A stretch of 64,000 nucleotides of DNA from Rhodoflexus caldus (GTDB taxonomy: Bacteria; Bacteroidota; Bacteroidia; Cytophagales; Thermoflexibacteraceae). Below, one piece after another: positions 8,157 through 57,529 of this stretch. The DNA lies in contig NZ_JAJPRF010000012.1 in assembly GCF_021206925.1 (NCBI RefSeq), positions 1-64,000 on the forward strand. Direction: 5' to 3'. Positions within the stretch are counted from its first letter, which is position 1. Each line of letters starts with the position of its first letter. The notes beneath the pieces are model-generated. The model was given only the letters and a program-made list of their open reading frames with translations. It had not been told where the DNA came from and made no database searches. A program made the translations under genes and the position numbers.

Positions 8157-11100
8157 TTAGCGGCCTTGACCTACTGCAAAGTAAGCACCTGTACCGTAAT
8201 GTACGTCGCGTACATAAGTTACGCCGGAGAAGGCATCAAAATCAGTCAGGTTATCACCTGAGTTGCCATCTGTCGGAGCAAGAATGCTAAAGTTGCGGAA
8301 GAAGCCATCTATAGCATTACCACTGTAAGTAGCAATGATACGACCGTTACGGTTGAAACCGGCAACAGGAACTACATAACCGCTACCACCGGCAGTTACA
8401 GTAACACCTGCAATTTTACCACCACCTGTATTGAGTGCACTTCCGATGTTACCACCAAACAGGTTAACTACAGCAGTAGCACCTGTACCTGTAGCAGAGT
8501 TGATAGTTACAGAAGGTGGAATGATAAAGCTTTGAGAGCGCAAGTAATCATCTTCGGTAGCAGTAAAGCCTGACAACGGCGTAGTGATATCACCAAACTC
8601 AAACCAACGACCAGAAGCAGGACGTGTAGCAGAACCAGCACCTGTAGATGGTGGGAACAGTGATACATTTGATACAGCACCGGTAGCAATAGTAGCAGAT
8701 ACAGCACCGGTGTAAGCTTGGAATGCACGATTCAAAGCCAAGTTCTGACGAGCAGAAGAAAGAGTTACTGTCAAAGGCTCAGTAGTATTCCAACTATTTA
8801 CAGGAATTGCACCAGCAGCAGCAGGATTGTAAGTAATTGCTTGAATCACACCTGTTGAGTTGAAACGGATATCAAACGCGCCGTTAGAAATAGTGATGTT
8901 ACCGTTAGCAGGAACAGGAGGACCAATATTGCTCAAAGTAGAGGCATTAGAAGGCTGTTGAGCCAGTGCCAAACCACCACCGGAGATAAACACGTCAGGC
9001 ACAGCCGCATACTGACCACCGTTTACAATAGTGAATGTCAGAGAAGCAGCTTCCAATCTGGTAGATACATCATTTGCATCCTCACCGTTAGGTACAATTT
9101 CAAATGTAATAGGCTGACCTTGTACATAACCTGCACCCTTAGAAGTAATTACCAGACCTACAACGCGGTTAGCATTGTCAAATACAGGATAACCTTCGGC
9201 AGGTAAGAATGGAGCTGTTGGAGGAGTACTGAACTTAGCAATGTAAGTATGGTTATCGCGTGCATACTGAGATGTAGCAGCCGCGCTATTGCTAATACGA
9301 GCACCTGAACCACCTGCAGGAGTATAACCGGGATAACCATCAGCAAAGATTGAAGCTGCTGTAGAAGGACCCGGAATAAAGCGACCGGCATTTTGAGAAG
9401 GTACGTTAAATGCATAGTTGTCAATACCTGTACCTGCCAAATAGCCTTGAGCGGCCAAAGATTGGCTTGAACCGGGGTTGTTAATAGTGATACCCAAGTT
9501 AGCAATAGGATCTCCGGGAGCAATACCAAGCACTGTAGCAGCATCACCACCACCTGACAAGGTAATCTCAGCTACTAAACCTTGGTTAGCAAGAGCATTA
9601 GCAGACAATACTGAAACGTTGATGTTAGGAAGAACACCGGCATTGGCAAGCGTAGTTGCAGTGGCACCTGAGAAAGAAGCAGTAGGCACGAATACATAAG
9701 GCTGGGTACCCGGAGATACTACATTTGAACCTGTACCATCATATTGAGCAGTACCTGTATTGTCAAAGAATGTAAACGTAGTAGCTGTAATACCTGTAGT
9801 AGCATTACCGTAAGGTGAGTCAGCAACCAAGCCACCAAGCGCGTTACCGCCGTTGTCAAAGTTGAATTGTACGCGACCTGTAGGGCTTGTTTCAAACAAA
9901 GCAATAGGAATAGCACCACCGTTTACACCTTGAGTAGGAGCTAATTGAGCTCCGGCACCATAAGAGAAGCCGATATTTACATCGGCGGCTGACAAACCGG
10001 CACCAACTGTGATTACATCAATTGCGTTTACGGTACCTACTGCATTGTATGAGTATTGTACGGTTGGAGTAACTTTAGGTACCGGCAGAGGATTCTGACC
10101 ACCGAACAGAATAGTTGGGTTAACACCTGTCCATGCACCTGTAGTAGAAACAACAGCAGGTGAAGTATATGGCTGAGGCAAGAAGCCAAAACCACCGTTA
10201 GTTACCTGAATAACGCTCAAAGCATCAACAGGAGCCTGCAGAGATCCTGTACCTGTTACGTTGCCTGTCGCAGAAGTGTTGTCGTTGCGTGTGAAAGTAC
10301 CGGTAGGAGCAGTAGTATAACCTGAGCCTGCGTTTACGGCACGGATACCGCGGATACGCTTGAATGGAGCATCAGCAGCTGCTACACCATTATCAGTCAG
10401 TACTACCAAACCTGTAGCAGTTTGTGCAGGACCTGCAGGTGAAGGAGTGAAAGTCACTGCAGGAGGCTGGATTTGGTTAGGATTAGAAGACTGAATGTAG
10501 TTGTTGCCACCGAAAGCCGGTACATTAGTCAAATACAGACCATTGTCAGCAGCTGCAGGCTCAAATGCAGCATCGGTTCCATCAATGCCGGTACCTGTAC
10601 GCAAGATAAAGTAATCATTGTTGGGATCCCATGAAGGACGACCTACACGCAGAGCTCCGGTGCGGGTAATAGCCGCAGTTACCTGAGCAGCCGCAATTTC
10701 AGTATTGAATGTTGCTGATGCAGAAACAATGTTCGTATTAGCTACAGGACCGTCACCAAACACTCGGTCAGCAGTCAAACCGGGACCATAGATGAAGCGA
10801 CGAGTAATTACAGCACCTGTACGACGGTTAGCAAGATCCAAGGTACCCAAGTTAGTGTTATCAAATGATGCTGCCCAGAAAGTACGGTCAGCAGCGATTT
10901 GAGAGTAACGCAGTTGGATAGGCAGACCTGAAGCAGTTGCAGGAACAACACCTGAATAGTTACCGGCAGCATCTACTACTACGTTAGTGGTAGCATTCTC
11001 GTAAGAGATGCGGTTAATAGCAGCCTCTTGGCCACCCGGAATAGCAGAAGCCTGATTAGCAATATTCAAATAACGAGCGCGGAATACGTCGTTGATGTTA

Positions 11101-11801
11101 ATGTTTGCAGTGAACAGGTTTGTACCGGCACCCAAAACACCGGGAGTTACTTGCTCTGCAGTTTCGTTGGTCAAATCTGTTTCAATGTAAGCGCGACCAC
11201 GAACGGTAGCAGTACCTGCACCTGTAGTTGGGAACAGAGGAATTACGTTACCTACGTGGATAGTACGTCCATTGCCGGGAGCTTGAGGCAAGTTACCGTT
11301 AGTTACGCTGTTACCATCAGCAGTCAGGTTAGCAGTGTAGTTAACAGTAGTGTGGTTAGGAGCAGAAGCCACTACGCTAACAGAACCGGCACGCAGTTCT
11401 ACTGTAACCATACCGCTGGCAGGAGTAGTCTGAGTTACGATGTTTCCATACTGAGCGATAGAAACGGTAGCGCCTTGTACGCCTTCCAACTCTTCAACAC
11501 GACCAGAACCGAAAGCAGCGTTACCACCTGCAACTACTGTTACAGTGTAGAATACGCGACCACCGGCGTTGATGCGGTCCAAAGAGTCCAATACGCGCTG
11601 ATAAGCCAGGCGGTTGTTGTCCCAAATACGAGCTTGACGCTCACGGGCAACACGAATTGAGTCCTCTGTGCGGAGGCGCTTCAATTCCAGATCCAAGGCA
11701 TTCGCTTCAGTGAACTTGTCCTTAGCGCAGCTCGTTACCAGAGCAGCAGCCGCCAGAACAGCAGTCATCCGAACCGGATACATGAATGTGTTTTTGTTCA
11801 T
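8157..11801 (-). CDS. Large repetitive surface lipoprotein of unknown function
   Basis: About 1214 residues. The ATG at 11801 gives MNKNTFMYPVRMTAVLAAAALVTSCAKD, a lipoprotein signal with lipobox VTSC; the reading frame is open upstream but that part lies within the promoter. A charged helical stretch (about 25-65) is followed by a carboxypeptidase-regulatory-like region (VEGVQGATVSIAQYG-type) and then Gly/Thr/Ala-rich beta sequence. A degenerate unit of the form (I/V)xxIxVTxGGxGYxxxPxxxF recurs at about 10300-10360, 10165-10230, 9960-10050, 9100-9170, 8975-9060 and 8345-8415. Such units occur in adhesin-like beta proteins. Codon use favours GTA, GCA, ACA and CCT more than in the GC-richer neighbours, which would fit strong expression. 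No type IX sorting domain is seen. Function is unknown. Confidence 0.8.
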   Translation of the reverse strand: MNKNTFMYPVRMTAVLAAAALVTSCAKDKFTEANALDLELKRLRTEDSIRVARERQARIWDNNRLAYQRVLDSLDRINAGGRVFYTVTVVAGGNAAFGSGRVEELEGVQGATVSIAQYGNIVTQTTPASGMVTVELRAGSVSVVASAPNHTTVNYTANLTADGNSVTNGNLPQAPGNGRTIHVGNVIPLFPTTGAGTATVRGRAYIETDLTNETAEQVTPGVLGAGTNLFTANININDVFRARYLNIANQASAIPGGQEAAINRISYENATTNVVVDAAGNYSGVVPATASGLPIQLRYSQIAADRTFWAASFDNTNLGTLDLANRRTGAVITRRFIYGPGLTADRVFGDGPVANTNIVSASATFNTEIAAAQVTAAITRTGALRVGRPSWDPNNDYFILRTGTGIDGTDAAFEPAAADNGLYLTNVPAFGGNNYIQSSNPNQIQPPAVTFTPSPAGPAQTATGLVVLTDNGVAAADAPFKRIRGIRAVNAGSGYTTAPTGTFTRNDNTSATGNVTGTGSLQAPVDALSVIQVTNGGFGFLPQPYTSPAVVSTTGAWTGVNPTILFGGQNPLPVPKVTPTVQYSYNAVGTVNAIDVITVGAGLSAADVNIGFSYGAGAQLAPTQGVNGGAIPIALFETSPTGRVQFNFDNGGNALGGLVADSPYGNATTGITATTFTFFDNTGTAQYDGTGSNVVSPGTQPYVFVPTASFSGATATTLANAGVLPNINVSVLSANALANQGLVAEITLSGGGDAATVLGIAPGDPIANLGITINNPGSSQSLAAQGYLAGTGIDNYAFNVPSQNAGRFIPGPSTAASIFADGYPGYTPAGGSGARISNSAAATSQYARDNHTYIAKFSTPPTAPFLPAEGYPVFDNANRVVGLVITSKGAGYVQGQPITFEIVPNGEDANDVSTRLEAASLTFTIVNGGQYAAVPDVFISGGGLALAQQPSNASTLSNIGPPVPANGNITISNGAFDIRFNSTGVIQAITYNPAAAGAIPVNSWNTTEPLTVTLSSARQNLALNRAFQAYTGAVSATIATGAVSNVSLFPPSTGAGSATRPASGRWFEFGDITTPLSGFTATEDDYLRSQSFIIPPSVTINSATGTGATAVVNLFGGNIGSALNTGGGKIAGVTVTAGGSGYVVPVAGFNRNGRIIATYSGNAIDGFFRNFSILAPTDGNSGDNLTDFDAFSGVTYVRDVHYGTGAYFAVGQGR

Positions 11802-11843
11802 AACGTTTTTTTTAATTGTAATTAGGTTTGTTAATTGATTTCG

Positions 11844-11874
11844 CAAAATTAAGGTTGTTATCCAATATTGCAAA
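11844..11874 (-). promoter_or_regulatory. Strong Bacteroidota-type promoter of the large lipoprotein gene
   Basis: On the minus strand TTTG (complement of 11871-11874), 19 bases, then TAATTTTG (complement of 11844-11851): a near-ideal match to TTTG-N19-TAnnTTTG. The predicted start near 11837 leaves a leader of about 35 bases before the ATG at 11801, which supports that start over the earlier in-frame codon. Confidence 0.7.
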
Positions 11875-33072: not shown

Positions 33073-33076
33073 AAAG

Positions 33077-33149
33077 TGATCCCGCTGGGACTCGAACCCA
33101 GGACCCATACATTAAAAGTGTATTGCTCTACCAACTGAGCTACGGAATC
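33077..33149 (-). tRNA. tRNA-Lys (UUU), second copy of the operon
   Basis: The 73-base minus-strand cloverleaf has acceptor GATTCCG/CGGGATC plus discriminator A, D-arm GCTCAGTTGGTAGAGC, anticodon loop CTTTTAA between ATACA and TGTAT (anticodon TTT), and T-loop TTCGAGT. CCA is not encoded. The sequence is identical to the copy at 33259-33331. Confidence 0.95.
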
Positions 33150-33154
33150 TACTG

Positions 33155-33238
33155 TGCGCAAGAGAAGACTCGAACTTCCACGGGCTAACGCCCACCACCC
33201 CCTCAAGATGGCGTGTCTACCAGTTTCACCACTTGCGC
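33155..33238 (-). tRNA. tRNA-Leu (GAG)
   Basis: The 84-base minus-strand tRNA has acceptor GCGCAAG/CTTGCGC plus A, D-arm with GGTGAAACTGGTAGACAC, anticodon stem CCATC/GGTGG with loop TTGAGGG (anticodon GAG), a long class II variable arm TGGGCGTTAGCCCG, and T-loop TTCGAGT. It sits between two identical tRNA-Lys genes. Confidence 0.95.
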
Positions 33239-33258
33239 GACTTGGGGTAGAAATTCTG

Positions 33259-33331
33259 TGATCCCGCTGGGACTCGAACCCAGGACCCATACATTAAAAG
33301 TGTATTGCTCTACCAACTGAGCTACGGAATC
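33259..33331 (-). tRNA. tRNA-Lys (UUU), first copy of the operon
   Basis: The sequence is identical over all 73 bases to the tRNA at 33077-33149. It is the promoter-proximal gene of the minus-strand operon Lys-Leu-Lys. Confidence 0.95.
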
Positions 33332-39500: not shown

Positions 39501-41399
39501 ATGGCAGCCGCAGAAACAAAGTACTTTATCCTCGATTTTGACAGTACATTTACCAAAGTAGAAGCCTTGGACGAATTGGCAGGCATAGCCCTCGATGGCT
39601 CACCCCTCCGCGAACAAATCGTCGAACAAATTGCAGACCTGACCAACCGCGGTATGGATGGCAGCATTTCCTTCCGCGAGTCGCTTGAAAAGCGCGTGGC
39701 TTTGCTCAATGCCAACCGCTCACATTTGGAGCGCCTCATCGCCTCACTTAAAGCCAAAGTTTCAGATTCGGTCAAGCGCAACCGAGCCTTTTTTGAAACC
39801 TATGCCGATACCATTCTGATTATTTCCAGCGGCTTTAAGGAGTTTATTGTACCTGTGGTTTCCGAATATGGCATCAAACCCGAAAATGTTTATGCCAACG
39901 AGTTTTTATTCGATGACAAAGGAAACATCATTGGTTTCCGCGATGATATTCCGCTGGCACATAACAACGGCAAAGTAACACAACTTGCCGAACTGAACTT
40001 GCAGGGTGAAGTCTATGTCATCGGCGACGGCTACACCGACTACGAAATGCGCAAAGCAGGCCTTGCCAATAGCTTCTATGCGTTTACGGAAAATGTAGTG
40101 CGCGAAAGCGTAACCGGCATTGCCGACCACGTTACGCCGAGTTTAGATGAGTTCCTGTACGTAAATAAGCTGCCGATGGCTATTTCCTACCCGAAAAGTC
40201 GCATCAATGTGCTTATTCTGGAAAATATCCACAGCGAAGCCACCCATATCTTCAAAGAAGAAGGCTACAATGTTGAAATTATCAACTCTGCGCTGGATGA
40301 AAACGAACTCTGCGAAAAAATTAAAGACATTTCCATCCTTTGCATCCGCTCCAAAACCAATGTAACGCGCAAAGTAATAGAACATGCCAATAAACTAATG
40401 GCAATTGGTGCATTCTGCATTGGCACTAACCAAATTGATTTGGAAGCCTGTCTTGAAAAAGGGATAGCGGTGTTCAACGCTCCTTACAGCAATACAAGGA
40501 GTGTTGTAGAGTTGGCCATCGGCGAAATTATTATGCTCATGCGCAACATGCCCGACAAGGTTGCAGGTATGCACCAAGGCAAGTGGGACAAATCGGCAAC
40601 GGGCAGCTACGAAGTCCGCGGCAAAAAGTTGGGCATCATCGGCTATGGCAATATCGGCTCTCAACTGTCCGTAGTTGCCGAAGCGCTGGGTATGGATGTC
40701 TATTTCTACGACATTGTGGACAGGCTGGCCATCGGTAAAGCCCAAAAATGCCGCTCATTGCGGGAGTTACTCAATCTGGCAGATATTGTATCGCTCCATG
40801 TGGACGGGCGCAAGCAAAACCGCAACCTGATTGGTGCCGCCGAGTTTGCTGAAATGAAAGACGGTGTCATATTCATCAATTTGGCTCGCGGCGAAGTAGT
40901 AGATGTAGATGCACTGGTAAATGCCCTGCAAACAGGCAAAGTCCGAGGTGCGGCCGTAGATGTGTTCCCCAAAGAACCTAAGAACAACAAGGAAGAGTTT
41001 GTGTCTCCTCTGCGCGGCATGAAAAACGTACTGCTAACCCCTCACATAGGTGGTAGCACCATGGAAGCACAAATCAACATTGCCCAGTTTGTCCCCGGCA
41101 AACTGATAGAGTACATCAACACGGGCAATACTTTTATGAGTGTAAATTTTCCTAACATTCAACTGCCCGTACTGGAAAATGCACACCGCCTGATTCACAT
41201 TCATAAAAACGTATCGGGTATTTTGGCGCAAATCAACAATGTGCTTGCCCGCCATCAGATTAATATTGTCGGACAATACCTGAAAACCAGTGAAAAAGTA
41301 GGTTACGTAATCACCGATATTGACAAAGCCTACAACAAGGAGGTGATTAAAGACCTCAAAGCCATTGAAAATACCATCAAGTTCAGGGTGTTGTACTAA
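39501..41399 (+). CDS. serA: Phosphoserine phosphatase-like/phosphoglycerate dehydrogenase fusion
   Basis: The 632-residue protein joins two serine-pathway enzymes. Residues 1-220 are a HAD phosphatase of the SerB type: D12 and D14 in DFDST, IISSGF (105-112 region), K158, and GDGYTDYE with D176 and D180. Residues about 230-545 are 3-phosphoglycerate dehydrogenase: NAD site GYGNIG (381-386), catalytic R463, E492 and H515. Residues about 560-632 form an ACT domain for serine control. The first and third steps of serine synthesis from 3-phosphoglycerate would thus be in one chain, with only the aminotransferase step separate. All key residues appear intact in both halves. The phosphatase specificity is inferred. 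Confidence 0.9.
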   Translation: MAAAETKYFILDFDSTFTKVEALDELAGIALDGSPLREQIVEQIADLTNRGMDGSISFRESLEKRVALLNANRSHLERLIASLKAKVSDSVKRNRAFFETYADTILIISSGFKEFIVPVVSEYGIKPENVYANEFLFDDKGNIIGFRDDIPLAHNNGKVTQLAELNLQGEVYVIGDGYTDYEMRKAGLANSFYAFTENVVRESVTGIADHVTPSLDEFLYVNKLPMAISYPKSRINVLILENIHSEATHIFKEEGYNVEIINSALDENELCEKIKDISILCIRSKTNVTRKVIEHANKLMAIGAFCIGTNQIDLEACLEKGIAVFNAPYSNTRSVVELAIGEIIMLMRNMPDKVAGMHQGKWDKSATGSYEVRGKKLGIIGYGNIGSQLSVVAEALGMDVYFYDIVDRLAIGKAQKCRSLRELLNLADIVSLHVDGRKQNRNLIGAAEFAEMKDGVIFINLARGEVVDVDALVNALQTGKVRGAAVDVFPKEPKNNKEEFVSPLRGMKNVLLTPHIGGSTMEAQINIAQFVPGKLIEYINTGNTFMSVNFPNIQLPVLENAHRLIHIHKNVSGILAQINNVLARHQINIVGQYLKTSEKVGYVITDIDKAYNKEVIKDLKAIENTIKFRVLY

Positions 41400-52330: not shown

Positions 52331-52867
52331 ATGACACCCGAACAGGCGGAGTTGTGGCAAAAGCTCAAATATTTTGAGATGGACGATGTAAAATCGGCCT
52401 TGCCGTTTTCTGCGCGACTGGCACGCGACAACGGCTGGACACTTGATTTTGCCCTTCGCGCAGTGGACGAATACAAGAAATTTCTGTTGTTGGCAGCCAC
52501 GCTGCCACATCCGGTAACGCCCTCCGATGAAGTAGACCAAGTTTGGCATTTGCACCTGCTCTATACACGCAGCTACTGGGACGAGCTTTGCGGGCAAATT
52601 CTCCGAAAACCTCTGCATCACGGCCCTACACGCGGCGGCAATGCCGAGCGCAACAAGTTCAACGATTGGTACAACTACACGCTGACAAGCTACCAAACAA
52701 CATTCGGCCATGCTCCGCCCAAAGATATTTGGCCGCCTGCCGAAATTCGTTTTCGTTTCATTAACTTTATGAGAGTCAATGCCGATACGCATTTTATCAT
52801 CCCTAAAAAGCATTGGTGGTTGCTCCTCAAAAACCAATTGAAACGATTATGGCTGCCGCGCTCGTAA
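52331..52867 (+). CDS. Glycine-rich domain-containing-protein-like (GRDP-like) protein
   Basis: The 178-residue protein contains AVDEYKKFLLLAATLPHPVTPSDEVDQVWHLHLLYTRSYWDELC, the core of the GRDP-like family (best known from plant glycine-rich domain proteins). Conserved W, H and Y residues are present. No signal peptide or membrane helix is seen. It overlaps the next gene, which carries a Gly/Cys-rich tail; in eukaryotic relatives a similar core and glycine-rich region are in one chain. The function is unknown. Confidence 0.8.
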   Translation: MTPEQAELWQKLKYFEMDDVKSALPFSARLARDNGWTLDFALRAVDEYKKFLLLAATLPHPVTPSDEVDQVWHLHLLYTRSYWDELCGQILRKPLHHGPTRGGNAERNKFNDWYNYTLTSYQTTFGHAPPKDIWPPAEIRFRFINFMRVNADTHFIIPKKHWWLLLKNQLKRLWLPRS

Positions 52868-53682
52868 ATTTCAAAATGCTGCCCTCGCTAACGCCTGCGG
52901 AATCGCTCGTATTGCTGCACGGTAAAGAAGCAGACTTCAAGCGAATGCTCAAACTGACACTGATGGACTTGCTGCTGAAAAAAGTGCTTGCCATCAAGCC
53001 CGCACCTGCCACAGGACATGATGAAGCACCGACGGCAAATCTGTACGTACAGCGAGGCGAGCACTATGCCGACTATCGCCCGTTTGCACATGAGGAGATT
53101 TACACCGGTCATTTTTCGCGCGAACCCAATCGGGAAATTTTATTAGCCAACTTGATTAAGTTAGCGCGTGGAAAGGCAGCAAACCCTGCTTATTTGCGGC
53201 AACAGGTGATGAAAACTCCGCAACTGCTTACGGCTTTTGAACGCGGGTTTTGGGCAAGGCTGACGGATAAGGTCAAATATACCGAAGAAGGAGCACTGAA
53301 ACGAACCTATGCCGCCACGGAATTACAGGAACTGACCCATATGTTGCCTGACCTCTATCATACGGACAAGGCGACAGCAAAAAAACTGCTGCAACTGCTG
53401 CACGGCAACTTATTCCTTACCGAGGCTATTGACCACCATTTGCTCGTGCTGTTAGATGATGAGTTAAGCCGTTTGTTTGAGCGCGAAAGAACATCGGACA
53501 ACAACGACTTACTTTACATGACCGATGGTTTTGACTTTGACTTTGACAGTTCTTTTGATGATGGCTTTGGCGGCAGCTCCGACGGGGACTCCTATGGCGG
53601 CAGTTCTGATGATGGCGGCTCCGACGGCGGAGGCGACTCCGGCTGTGGGGGTGGTTGCAGCGGCTGCGGCGGCGGGGATTAA
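52849..53682 (+). CDS. Helical protein with Asp/Gly/Ser and Cys-rich tail
   Basis: About 277 residues from the ATG at 52849 (another is 36 bases earlier). The N-terminal 230 residues are helical, with two similar winged-helix-like halves (LPSLTPAESLVLLHGKEADFKRMLKLTLMDLL...; LKRTYAATELQELTHMLPD...). The C-terminal 55 residues are low complexity: DFDFDSSFDDGFGGSS, then Gly/Ser/Asp runs and CGGGCSGCGGGD. Such Gly/Cys tails occur in TIGR04222-type and related proteins in bacteria. The tail has four Cys and could bind metal. It is coupled by overlap to the GRDP-like gene. Confidence 0.7.
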   Translation: MAAALVNFKMLPSLTPAESLVLLHGKEADFKRMLKLTLMDLLLKKVLAIKPAPATGHDEAPTANLYVQRGEHYADYRPFAHEEIYTGHFSREPNREILLANLIKLARGKAANPAYLRQQVMKTPQLLTAFERGFWARLTDKVKYTEEGALKRTYAATELQELTHMLPDLYHTDKATAKKLLQLLHGNLFLTEAIDHHLLVLLDDELSRLFERERTSDNNDLLYMTDGFDFDFDSSFDDGFGGSSDGDSYGGSSDDGGSDGGGDSGCGGGCSGCGGGD

Positions 53683-53955: not shown

Positions 53956-55755
53956 TTACTCGGTTTTGCTTACTACGCCACCTTTCATGCTGTCCACTTC
54001 TACGGTGTATTTATCGGCAGAACCACGCACAATCCAGCGCACTTTAACGGCATAATTACCGCCGCCAAAGCCACCAAAACCACCGCCACCGCCGCCTGTG
54101 CCGGTCAGTGTGCCGGGGATATTGGGCACTTCAATGGTTTGCGGGTTGAACTTCTGTTCGCGAGTCAGGTTGAGGTCTGCATCGTCCACAATCATGCCGC
54201 TGATAACCTGCGCATTTTTCAACGTGATATAATCGGGACGCTCAATTTTGTAGCGCACATCATGCGAAGAGTGCGTAGGCATGGCACGGGTGTTAATAAT
54301 GGTAGCCGTAACCTCTGTTAAACCTCCGGGCAGTTTCTTAGATTTAATTTCGGCAATCTCAATTTTGGGCATGTGGTAGGCGTGCAACAGCGTGAAGGCC
54401 ATGTTGCGGTGGCCTTCTTCTTCCAACATAAAGCCCGGCGTATTGCGGACGTTGTTTTTCTTGCTGCCACCGATTTCAATATCGCCGTATTGCGGGTGCT
54501 TGTAAGGCTTCCATTTTACATACGCATCGCCAAAGAGCAGGTATTTATCAAACTCATTGAACTCGTCGTTTTGGAAACGGCCTTCCGTAGACCTTTTGTT
54601 GAACAGGCGGTAAGAAGTGTTGATTTCGTTGGAGAAAGTAAAGATACCTCTTGCCAGCGCCAGCCAATCAATCTCACCACCGTAAACGGTGTACAAATCT
54701 TTCCAGAGCACGTAGTAGTTATAGCCCGGAATCATTTTTTCGCCCTGCTTGCCAATCAGGTCATAAACGGCAATGTCGGATTGTGTGTAAAACCCTTGGT
54801 CTTCCTCAGCACCGGGGCCGCGCAGGAACATACCGCCAAAGTTGTGGTAGCTCTGTGCGCCTGCAATATTGCGATGGTTGTAGATGAAGTTTTTCACATT
54901 GCGGGTTTCAACCAGCGTGCCGGGGTAGTAGAATGCACCGTTTTGCACATAGTCCGGTTGCCAGCCCCAGCCCCAGTCGCGGTTAGGGTCGTAAGTACCG
55001 GGCAGGTCTTCGTTTACGCGACCGTCGCCGTCATTGTCAATGCCTTCAATGCCCAACATCTCATACTCGCCCGGCTCGTCGGCTTTTGCGGGAATCATGC
55101 GGGCGGGATAGTTCGGGTCTTCTTTCCAGCGGCCTGTAGGCGACTTGCGGCGCATCATGGTAATTTCGCCGTCGCCGTCTAAGTCGTCGTAACCGTCTTC
55201 ATCAACGTAGCCGTCGCCGTCGTCGTCTAAGGCAACCAAACCTGAACGGGATGAGTTGGCAGTGTTGGGTTTAAACAAAAACTGCTCTCTCGAATCGGGG
55301 CTGAGCGTAGGCAGGATGTAGAAAATGCGGTCTTGCAGCATTTCGGTGATGAACTCCACTTTGCCGAAGCTCTCAGCCAGATACCATGCAGTGTACATGG
55401 CAAACTGTGTACCCTGCAACTCGTTGGCGTGGATGCCGCCATCAATCCAGAATCCCGGTTTGCGGTCGGCGTTGCCTTTTTTGTAGTCGGTGATGGCCAG
55501 CACAATCATGTCGCGGCCTTGTGTGGACTTCCCGATGTTCTCAATCTTTACCAGATTGGGGTAAGCCTTCACCAATTCCTGCGAAAGTTTCATGATGCCG
55601 GCATAGTCCATGTAGTAGTTCCATGCCCATTTTACTTTCGGGTTAGCGGGCGTACCCAACGCGCGCATCCCTGTCAGGTCGGGGTCGGTTTGTGAAAAGG
55701 CAGCCATCTGTACGCCAATACACAAAAGGGCTGCGGAAAATATTTTCTTCAACAT
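53956..55755 (-). CDS. M14 zinc carboxypeptidase with calcium-type Asp loops
   Basis: The 599-residue exported peptidase has a signal peptide (MLKKIFSAALLCIGVQMAAFSQ) and an M14 fold. Zinc ligands are H109 and E112 in GGIHANELQG and H304 in QSYHNFGG. Between them lie two Asp-rich segments, DDDGDGYVDEDGYDDLDGDGE (about 177-197, in two loops) and DNDGDGRVNED (about 240-250), like calcium loops of thrombospondin or dockerin repeats. A C-terminal beta domain of about 110 residues follows. It probably removes C-terminal residues from proteins or peptides in the periplasm. It is 52 bases downstream of a related gene whose zinc site is altered. Confidence 0.9.
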   Translation of the reverse strand: MLKKIFSAALLCIGVQMAAFSQTDPDLTGMRALGTPANPKVKWAWNYYMDYAGIMKLSQELVKAYPNLVKIENIGKSTQGRDMIVLAITDYKKGNADRKPGFWIDGGIHANELQGTQFAMYTAWYLAESFGKVEFITEMLQDRIFYILPTLSPDSREQFLFKPNTANSSRSGLVALDDDGDGYVDEDGYDDLDGDGEITMMRRKSPTGRWKEDPNYPARMIPAKADEPGEYEMLGIEGIDNDGDGRVNEDLPGTYDPNRDWGWGWQPDYVQNGAFYYPGTLVETRNVKNFIYNHRNIAGAQSYHNFGGMFLRGPGAEEDQGFYTQSDIAVYDLIGKQGEKMIPGYNYYVLWKDLYTVYGGEIDWLALARGIFTFSNEINTSYRLFNKRSTEGRFQNDEFNEFDKYLLFGDAYVKWKPYKHPQYGDIEIGGSKKNNVRNTPGFMLEEEGHRNMAFTLLHAYHMPKIEIAEIKSKKLPGGLTEVTATIINTRAMPTHSSHDVRYKIERPDYITLKNAQVISGMIVDDADLNLTREQKFNPQTIEVPNIPGTLTGTGGGGGGFGGFGGGNYAVKVRWIVRGSADKYTVEVDSMKGGVVSKTE

Positions 55756-55807
55756 TGGTTTCTTTTTAATTTGTCAAACGGTGTGAATGATTTAAACCCT
55801 GCATTGG

Positions 55808-57529
55808 TTATTTGAGCGTTACTTCGGTGGAAGCTACGCCTGCCGTAGGGCATCCTGCCTGAATGGTCAGTTTGCCTGTTCCTGAAATCAGCCAAGTGTA
55901 TTCTTCTGCTTCACCGGCAGCCAGCGCATTGCGGAGAATAATTTTACGGCCTGAAACAATGCTTTGACCATTGCCTAAGAACAGTTCTGTTTTTACCTTC
56001 TTCACCCAGCGCACACGGTCGCCCATATCGGCATAGGTAGGCAGCAAACCTTTGTTTACCACTTGCAGCGTAATGCGGTTCAGGCCGTTGCCCAACGATT
56101 CGGTTCTGACGTTTACAATCTGAACATCAGGCATTTGCATACCTAATCCTGCAATAAACTTCAAGTGCTTTTCGGCTGTTTCGTTTAGGTAATTTACAGG
56201 AGGGTTCAATTTTGCATAAGGTGCAATACCACCCACTTCGGCTTTTTTATCAGGGAAATCAGGATGTTTGATTTCTTTCCACTCTACGAACACATCCGTG
56301 AGTTTCTCGCGGTCTGCCCATTTGAGGAAGCGCACGTCGTCATTATCTGCGCCGGCTGCCGCAGCACCTGCACCGCCACCGCCCATGCGCCCGCCGCCGG
56401 CAGGAGCTGTTGTGGCTGCACCTGCGCCCGCATCAGCTTTTTTGGTAGTGTCTTTGGCTGCTTCTACTTTGGGAGCCCACCAACCGGGTGTGGTAAAACT
56501 GAAACGACCTGCGTGGAAATAAGCAGTTTGCGAAAAGTTGCCCTTGGTTTGCGGCATGGCAGGCGCATCTTTCAAACCTAACGAATTGTAGAGTTTGGAA
56601 ACCTGCTCCATGGCCGAAGCATCTTTTTGCGTAGGGCCTGTAACAATGCGGCGTGCTACTTTAGACTGGTCAAACTTAGGCGCTTCGCTCAGGTTGTTGT
56701 TCGGGCCGAAGGTCAGCACCGCGAAAATATTCGGAGAACCGTACAGGAAATCGGAAATGGCACGCACCTCAGGCTCGGAAGCCGCATAATCGCCCGAACC
56801 ATCTACGAAAATCGGGTAGTCAAAGGTGAAGTTTTTGTCTATATGAACGCCACCCGCACCGTCTTCGTTGAATTTGCCGTCTTTGTCGTTGTCGGTTCCT
56901 TCGGTGATGAGGATGTACTTACCGCTTTCGCCTTTGGCAGGGTCAGCTTTTACCAGCACGCGCGGGTCATCTTTGGACACAATGAATGTGCCTGTCGGGT
57001 CTTCCACACGCACCATGGTAATCAGTCCGTCGCCGTTGAGGTCTTCAAAAGGGTCTTCGTTCAGGCGGCCATCGCGATCGTTGTCATAATCCAGTCCGTT
57101 TTCGCTGCGCGCATAGCGGGGCTTGGCAGCCCACTGCTCTTGTGCGTCAGGGTTAGCGGAAGGGATGATGTAGATAGCTTTTGTTTCCAATAATTTGGCA
57201 ATGGAATCTTTGCCGGCATTGGCCAGCATTTTTTCTGCCATCTGAATGGCCGTTTCCGTTCCGGCAAGGTGTGCGCCCTCCAAACCTGCCACTATGAGCA
57301 GTGCCGGTTTTTTGGCAGCATCGCCTTTGCTGAGCGTAAGTAACCAGATGTCGCGTTGTCCGCGGCTTTTTCCGATAGACTTCACGGAAGCCAGCGAACC
57401 GTTGGCTGAAGCTAATGTTCTCAGCCTTGAACTGCGTTGTTCATGGCTTTGATACGATGTTTGGGCTTGTGCATGGCCTGTCAATGCAAGGCAGGTGAGC
57501 CCCATCCAAAGCAAGTGTTTGTGTTTCAT
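55808..57529 (-). CDS. M14-fold protein with altered zinc site (probable pseudo-peptidase)
   Basis: The 573-residue exported protein (signal MKHKHLLWMGLTCLALTGHAQAQ) is similar in layout to the next gene but changed at the active site. Where the active paralogue has HxxE (GIHANELQGT), this one has LEGAHLAGT, i.e. E84 and H87, so the two zinc ligands are exchanged. The third ligand H304 aligns with G275. Asp-rich loops (DYDNDRDGRLNEDPFEDLNGDGL) are kept, as is the C-terminal beta domain. A Gly/Ala-rich insert with GGGRMGGGGAGAAAAG lies at about 385-405. It may be a non-catalytic partner or binding protein. Confidence 0.85.
   Translation of the reverse strand: MKHKHLLWMGLTCLALTGHAQAQTSYQSHEQRSSRLRTLASANGSLASVKSIGKSRGQRDIWLLTLSKGDAAKKPALLIVAGLEGAHLAGTETAIQMAEKMLANAGKDSIAKLLETKAIYIIPSANPDAQEQWAAKPRYARSENGLDYDNDRDGRLNEDPFEDLNGDGLITMVRVEDPTGTFIVSKDDPRVLVKADPAKGESGKYILITEGTDNDKDGKFNEDGAGGVHIDKNFTFDYPIFVDGSGDYAASEPEVRAISDFLYGSPNIFAVLTFGPNNNLSEAPKFDQSKVARRIVTGPTQKDASAMEQVSKLYNSLGLKDAPAMPQTKGNFSQTAYFHAGRFSFTTPGWWAPKVEAAKDTTKKADAGAGAATTAPAGGGRMGGGGAGAAAAGADNDDVRFLKWADREKLTDVFVEWKEIKHPDFPDKKAEVGGIAPYAKLNPPVNYLNETAEKHLKFIAGLGMQMPDVQIVNVRTESLGNGLNRITLQVVNKGLLPTYADMGDRVRWVKKVKTELFLGNGQSIVSGRKIILRNALAAGEAEEYTWLISGTGKLTIQAGCPTAGVASTEVTLK

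Follow-up and report, generated by a model that had tools for sequence, protein, structure and literature searches.

What might a peptidase which has lost its active site be doing directly beside an intact homologue? The question is raised by two tandem genes of the M14 peptidase family in Rhodoflexus caldus, on the minus strand of contig NZ_JAJPRF010000012.1 (assembly GCF_021206925.1), positions 1 to 64,000 of which form the window, that is, the whole stretch of 64,000 nucleotides analysed here. The first gene encodes PS (protein P0002), a pseudo-carboxypeptidase, and the second AC (P0001), a predicted active enzyme whose frame begins 52 nt past the PS stop codon. A first-pass annotation had proposed that two zinc ligands are exchanged between the neighbours and a third is lost from PS, making PS either a pseudo-enzyme, possibly a partner of AC or a substrate receptor for it, or the bearer of a new metal site. 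Both open reading frames were confirmed, and the features of interest are these:

55808..57529, minus strand: PS (P0002), 573 aa; probably secreted M14-fold pseudo-carboxypeptidase, first gene of the pair.
53956..55755, minus strand: AC (P0001), 599 aa; complete predicted M14 zinc carboxypeptidase, second gene.
57269..57280, minus strand: codons of PS E84-G-A-H87, opposite AC H109-A-N-E112; the pair varies among homologues.
56834..56839, minus strand: codons of PS D231-K232, in the N144-R145 columns of carboxypeptidase A (CPA) in an alignment of 97 PS proteins.
56705..56707, minus strand: codon of PS G275, opposite the AC zinc ligand H304 in the same alignment.
56477..56491, minus strand: codons of PS T347-P-G-W-W351, a PS-specific conserved motif at the position of the catalytic Glu.

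Both proteins belong to M14. AC and PS match Pfam PF00246 (Peptidase_M14) with 109.9 and 71.8 bits respectively (cut-off 21.6), and the family is also matched by 50 of 50 PS proteins at E values up to 0.01. PF00246 was the sole match in the Pfam search of P0001 and P0002, so no M16 family, with its HxxEH motif and M16 fold, was matched; a search of NCBIfam gave a family for neither protein. The window genome has seven PF00246 matches from six proteins, PS and AC among them, and the nearest named relatives of PS come from a Cytophagales metagenome-assembled genome (96% identity) and a Bernardetiaceae one (87%). Single-chain AlphaFold2 models (pLDDT 87.1 and pTM 0.86 for PS, 81.7 and 0.85 for AC) have a carboxypeptidase fold in fold searches that included Foldseek. 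Aligned with VIA-align to carboxypeptidase T (6f79), the PS model gives Z 31.6 and 2.8 Å over 290 residues, and the AC model Z 33.9 and 2.6 Å over 299. Two near-invariant Asp-rich loops and a C-terminal part are common to PS and AC; by their motifs the former are presumed to be calcium loops. Alignment and model thus uphold the view of the first-pass annotation that PS keeps the fold, the loops and the C-terminal part. Residues 359-394 of the window PS, past the TPGWW motif, form an Ala/Gly-rich, low-confidence insert which is absent from many homologues.

The two proteins differ at the active site. Profile–profile alignment with hhalign of 50 PS against 42 AC proteins (probability 100, E 6.8e-74, 500 columns) pairs PS E84 and H87 with AC H109 and E112, and PS G275 with AC H304, reproducing the pairing of the earlier alignment. 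Loss of the catalytic Glu is an addition to that description: multiple alignments place PS P348 opposite the catalytic E377 of AC. The extent of these losses was followed in an alignment drawn from 113 PS proteins with lengths of 490 aa or more, of which 97, mutually less than 95% identical, were kept. The ligand His is present at the first site in 0/97, the ligand Glu at the second in 0/97 and the ligand His at the third in 0/97; the third column holds Gly in 86, Ser in nine, and Glu and Thr in one each. The column of the catalytic Glu270 is Pro in 90, with two Asp, two Gln and one each of Tyr, Arg and Asn. Among 93 paired AC proteins, by contrast, the first ligand is His in 92 (one Arg), the second Glu in 91 (two Gln), the third His in all 93 and the catalytic residue Glu in all 93, whilst the columns of CPA N144 (AC N258) and R145 (AC R259) hold Asn in 92 with one Ser, and Arg in 93. 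In eleven unpaired AC-like proteins the HxxE ligand pair and the catalytic Glu are invariant, and the third ligand is kept in nine (one Leu, one Asp). With its catalytic Glu and every zinc ligand gone, PS is predicted from its sequence to be incapable of M14 peptidase catalysis; AC, with equivalents of all the ligands and of N144, R145 and Glu270, is a complete predicted M14 metallocarboxypeptidase.

Part of the substrate-binding corner appears to survive in PS. The R145 column is basic in 94 of the 97 (70 Lys and 24 Arg, with two Gln and one Met) and the N144 column is Asn in 74 (17 Asp, three Glu, two Arg, one Gly). These columns were named by aligning the AC motif DPNRDW with carboxypeptidase A2 and the AC profile with carboxypeptidase T; the CPA residue numbers are those used in a review (PMC11266112). 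The match of PS R141 to R127 rests on the profile–profile alignment, where it pairs with AC R170, and on the PS-only alignment, in which the column is Arg in 79/97.

PS is a conserved family. In a tree of 74 proteins, built by a quick method and containing long branches, PS occupies one side of a branch (SH-aLRT 95); AC does not (three changes), two AC-like rows having been labelled 'other'. Identity reaches 95% or more at 55 positions across the 97 proteins. The TPGWW motif is prominent, with P348 in 90, W350 in 94 and W351 in 87, and with the commonest residue at position 347 in 92%. The lost HxxE ligand columns lie at the 56th and 66th conservation percentiles, near the middle of the range for PS, and percentiles between the 78th and the 96th are reached by N278/N279/L280, T347-W351 and the Asp-rich loops; this indicates that the old sites have been relaxed whilst a new, PS-specific set nearby has been kept. 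The ratio of non-synonymous to synonymous substitution (dN/dS), taken against the nearest congener of the window (G008) as the sole comparison without saturation, comes to 0.072 in PS and 0.028 in AC; against G006, dS reaches 1.6 (PS) and 2.0 (AC), and for AC it was not computable against G007 and G202. PS is under purifying selection. A scan of contigs from one genome per species confirmed 397 PS loci, and viral contigs scanned with P0002 yielded no confirmed relative.

PS is also tied to AC across genomes. The best 80 of the 397 loci, ranked by likeness to the query starting with the window PS, were examined as a set drawn from GTDB; it leans to near relatives, with 77 loci from Bacteroidota, two from Balneolota and one from Rhodothermota. 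In 78 of the 80, PS is directly followed by an AC-type frame in the same orientation; these include one with AC in two broken frames (L114) and one with AC truncated by a contig end (L170). The two other loci (L124 and L125) stop at a contig edge. An even sample of 395 genomes from the phylum is broader than this set, and its initial search pass could miss distant members. With an orthologue cut of more than 350 bits, chosen by us, AC was found in 37/395 of these genomes. PS is present in 36 of the 37 and adjoins AC by coordinates in 35, and PS without AC was seen in 0/395. In the 37th genome (G147) AC begins 29 nt from a contig end, placing the PS position out of view; another (G338) shows just a fragment of PS, at the end of a contig, and a third (G204) has both genes although they sit on two separate contigs, away from the ends of either. 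In a class sample, PS was matched at E values up to 1e-45 in 14/395 genomes. The gap between the genes has a median of 11 nt over 108 pairs and is at most 100 nt in 104 of them, by a rough start-codon rule. Tree distances of PS and AC are correlated (r 0.81 over 32 pairs), with 0 of 2000 permutations as high. No third gene family occurred in more than nine of the 80 loci in a home-made, rough set of neighbours, which limits the module to two genes. Some loci depart from the simple arrangement: in one (L131:3168-4883) a third M14 protein, its HxxE intact, is encoded immediately before PS to give a three-gene array, and a second AC copy stands beside the pair in L169 (8505-10262), L084 and L085, AC being duplicated there and PS not.

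The pairing thus recurs across the phylum and is beyond chance. Co-occurrence was among the checks suggested by the first-pass annotation, and its reading of PS as a pseudo-enzyme and partner of its active neighbour is well supported by four lines of evidence: the conservation of PS, its co-occurrence with AC, the constant order of the genes and the purifying selection on PS. Both proteins are probably secreted to the periplasm: a home-made, rough rule detects a signal peptide in 108/109 PS and 108/109 AC proteins of the paired set, with a lipobox-like motif in one PS and four AC proteins among these.

A lookalike without a zinc site, kept by evolution beside a live enzyme, suggests that the dead copy may help the live one. 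From the observed dead site, conservation, co-occurrence, gene order and selection we infer a physical complex, and on balance we favour a secreted module in which PS and AC are likely to form a heterodimer, with PS either capturing and presenting peptide C-termini or stabilising AC. In carboxypeptidase A, residues R127 and R145 grip the C-terminal carboxylate of the substrate and the oxyanion. Following an old duplication, PS would have lost its catalytic Glu and the zinc site with all three of its ligands, whilst retaining its fold and Asp-rich loops and, as R127- and R145-like basic residues, part of the corner that binds the carboxylate. It is this retained corner which leads us to propose C-terminus capture. 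Made together with AC and working with it as a heterodimer, PS would grip the free C-terminus of a peptide without cleaving it and pass the peptide to AC. Alternatively, within the same scheme, PS might stabilise AC, much as the inactive alpha subunit of mitochondrial processing peptidase (MPP) does its active beta partner. It is attractive, if speculative and rather unlikely in its entirety, to consider the pair as the first two-gene M14 holoenzyme, in which the R127/R145-like corner and a wall formed by TPGWW grip the carboxylate and hand peptides to AC, an independent invention of the division of labour between M16 alpha and beta subunits.

A number of points weigh against such a partnership, or against parts of it. 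The window PS itself has Asp at the N144 column, as do 17/97 PS proteins, and the joint alignment shows a gap at the R127 column in all 97. The PS-specific TPGWW motif may occupy the former pocket. Within the window's family PS was matched in 5/13 genomes and both genes are lacking in 8/13; that they are present or absent together indicates that the module is gained and lost as a whole, and it is dispensable in many lineages. Shared inheritance by itself would also make the PS and AC trees correlate, tree distances for PS are about 1.5 times those for AC (32 pairs), and no fused PS–AC frame was seen among the open frames listed.

The alternative which survives best is that PS acts by itself as a secreted binder of peptides or another ligand, belonging to the operon and pathway of AC and making no contact with it. 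The conserved neo-site (TPGWW and N278-N279-L280) and the basic corner kept in PS would suit such a role, as would the separation of the two genes in G204. AC-type M14 enzymes are, to our knowledge, monomers in solved relatives. The co-occurrence data nevertheless suggest that PS is useless without AC, and we regard an independent binder as possible but unlikely. A still less probable alternative is that PS regulates AC as an inhibitor, chaperone or zymogen-like cap, keeping AC inactive or helping it to fold during export. PS is always first in the loci examined, and so made just before AC, and its partner is fixed; against this, it retains the complete M14 fold, including a corner like that of an active site, and is not a small inhibitor domain.

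The new metal site put forward in the first-pass annotation fares far worse. Conservation of E84/H87, named there beforehand as the property by which the idea should be judged, was not found among the homologues. The E84 column holds Glu in 59, Asp in 27, Lys in eight and Ala, Asn and Ser in one each, and the H87 column His in 70, Gln in 12, Leu in five, Tyr in four, Asp and Ile in two each and Ser and Arg in one each, so that 27/97 carry another residue at the latter. Jointly, the states are ExxH in 39, DxxH in 21, ExxQ in ten, KxxH in eight and others in 19. On a tree of 32 PS proteins the first column changes seven times, the second nine times and the exact ExxH state seven times. ExxH is the commonest single state and the first column is acidic in 86/97, which do favour a site of this kind, but Lys in eight proteins, Gly or Ser in the third ligand column of 95/97 and the repeated changes are a poor fit to a metal site. 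The conservation pattern leads us to reject the swapped ligands as a new site, and a metalloprotein built upon them is highly improbable. H339 (93/97) was considered as a third ligand and rejected, no conserved pair following from it with H87 being His in 70/97 only. The exchange seen in the window is instead taken to be two unrelated substitutions, incidental drift at a dead site.

A functionless, decaying duplicate is a scarcely credible reading of PS. The protein does evolve faster than AC and is split into two frames in G128 and G004, but the dN/dS and conservation described above speak against decay, as do full-length PS frames occurring phylum-wide in one old clade. In G004, from another genus of the window's family, the split PS (locus L090, contig C27) lies at a contig end, where decay and assembly error are indistinguishable.

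The window has several other features. Two adjoining genes at 52331-53682 (plus strand) are downstream of the pair and convergent with it, the second having a Cys/Gly-rich tail, CGGGCSGCGGGD; they resemble membrane protein pairs of the TIGR04222 type. Read by eye, a 632-aa frame at 39501-41399 (plus strand) appears to join a phosphoserine phosphatase-like part to a D-3-phosphoglycerate dehydrogenase-like part, which would place two steps of serine synthesis in one protein. At 33076-33331 (minus strand) lies a tight tRNA cluster, Lys-Leu-Lys, in which both Lys genes have the anticodon ttt, and at 8157-11873 (minus strand) a 1238-aa low-complexity, lipoprotein-like frame rich in Gly, Ala and Thr with internal repeats visible by eye.

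The favoured partnership of PS and AC can be set beside known systems. Their common fold is that of carboxypeptidase T and carboxypeptidases A and B (MEROPS M14), and AC keeps equivalents of the CPA-type H69/E72/H196, N144/R145 and E270. Unlike these enzymes, both PS and AC have an insert with the two Asp-rich loops and a C-terminal extension, and PS is without any zinc ligand or catalytic Glu. Dead M14 homologues kept by evolution are described in the review (PMC11266112), among them AEBP1/ACLP, CPXM1, CPXM2 and Ecm14; it names four M14 pseudopeptidases of vertebrates and one characterised in yeast. These proteins are eukaryotic, keep H69 and E72 according to the review's table and show no gene pairing with an active M14 enzyme, whereas PS is bacterial, with both residues gone from nearly all homologues, and stands beside an active paralogue. 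Closer in function may be the third domain of carboxypeptidase D (CPD-III), a dead M14 unit which works with active M14 units and whose proposed role is to present substrates (PMC11266112, section 9), although CPD is one eukaryotic polypeptide of three units and PS and AC are two separate bacterial genes.

Inactive and active homologous metallopeptidases are likewise combined in MPP alpha/beta and in the bacterial M16B pairs TTHA1264/1265, SPH2681/2682 and AlbE/AlbF, the bacterial genes of which adjoin (PMC11266112 and PMC12731061). The TTHA1264/TTHA1265 heterodimer was predicted from gene neighbourhood and confirmed later, according to PMC12731061. PS and AC resemble these in being homologous dead and live proteins from a conserved gene pair; M16 is, however, an unrelated family with a common clam-shell chamber, and the M14 pair is known here from genes and single-chain models. 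A pseudopeptidase partner is of a known kind, and among the matches listed in the open-licence literature none describes an M14 pseudo-enzyme from bacteria or a pair of this sort.

The 397 PS loci are of a kind that matches the M14 profile, and automated annotation is likely to label them as active peptidases. A bacterial M14 pseudopeptidase whose likely partner is encoded by the next gene has a role that is testable by co-expression, something which is hard for the eukaryotic cases. Should a dead M14 protein prove to assist an active one in trans, this notion would become testable for the dead third domain of CPD as well.

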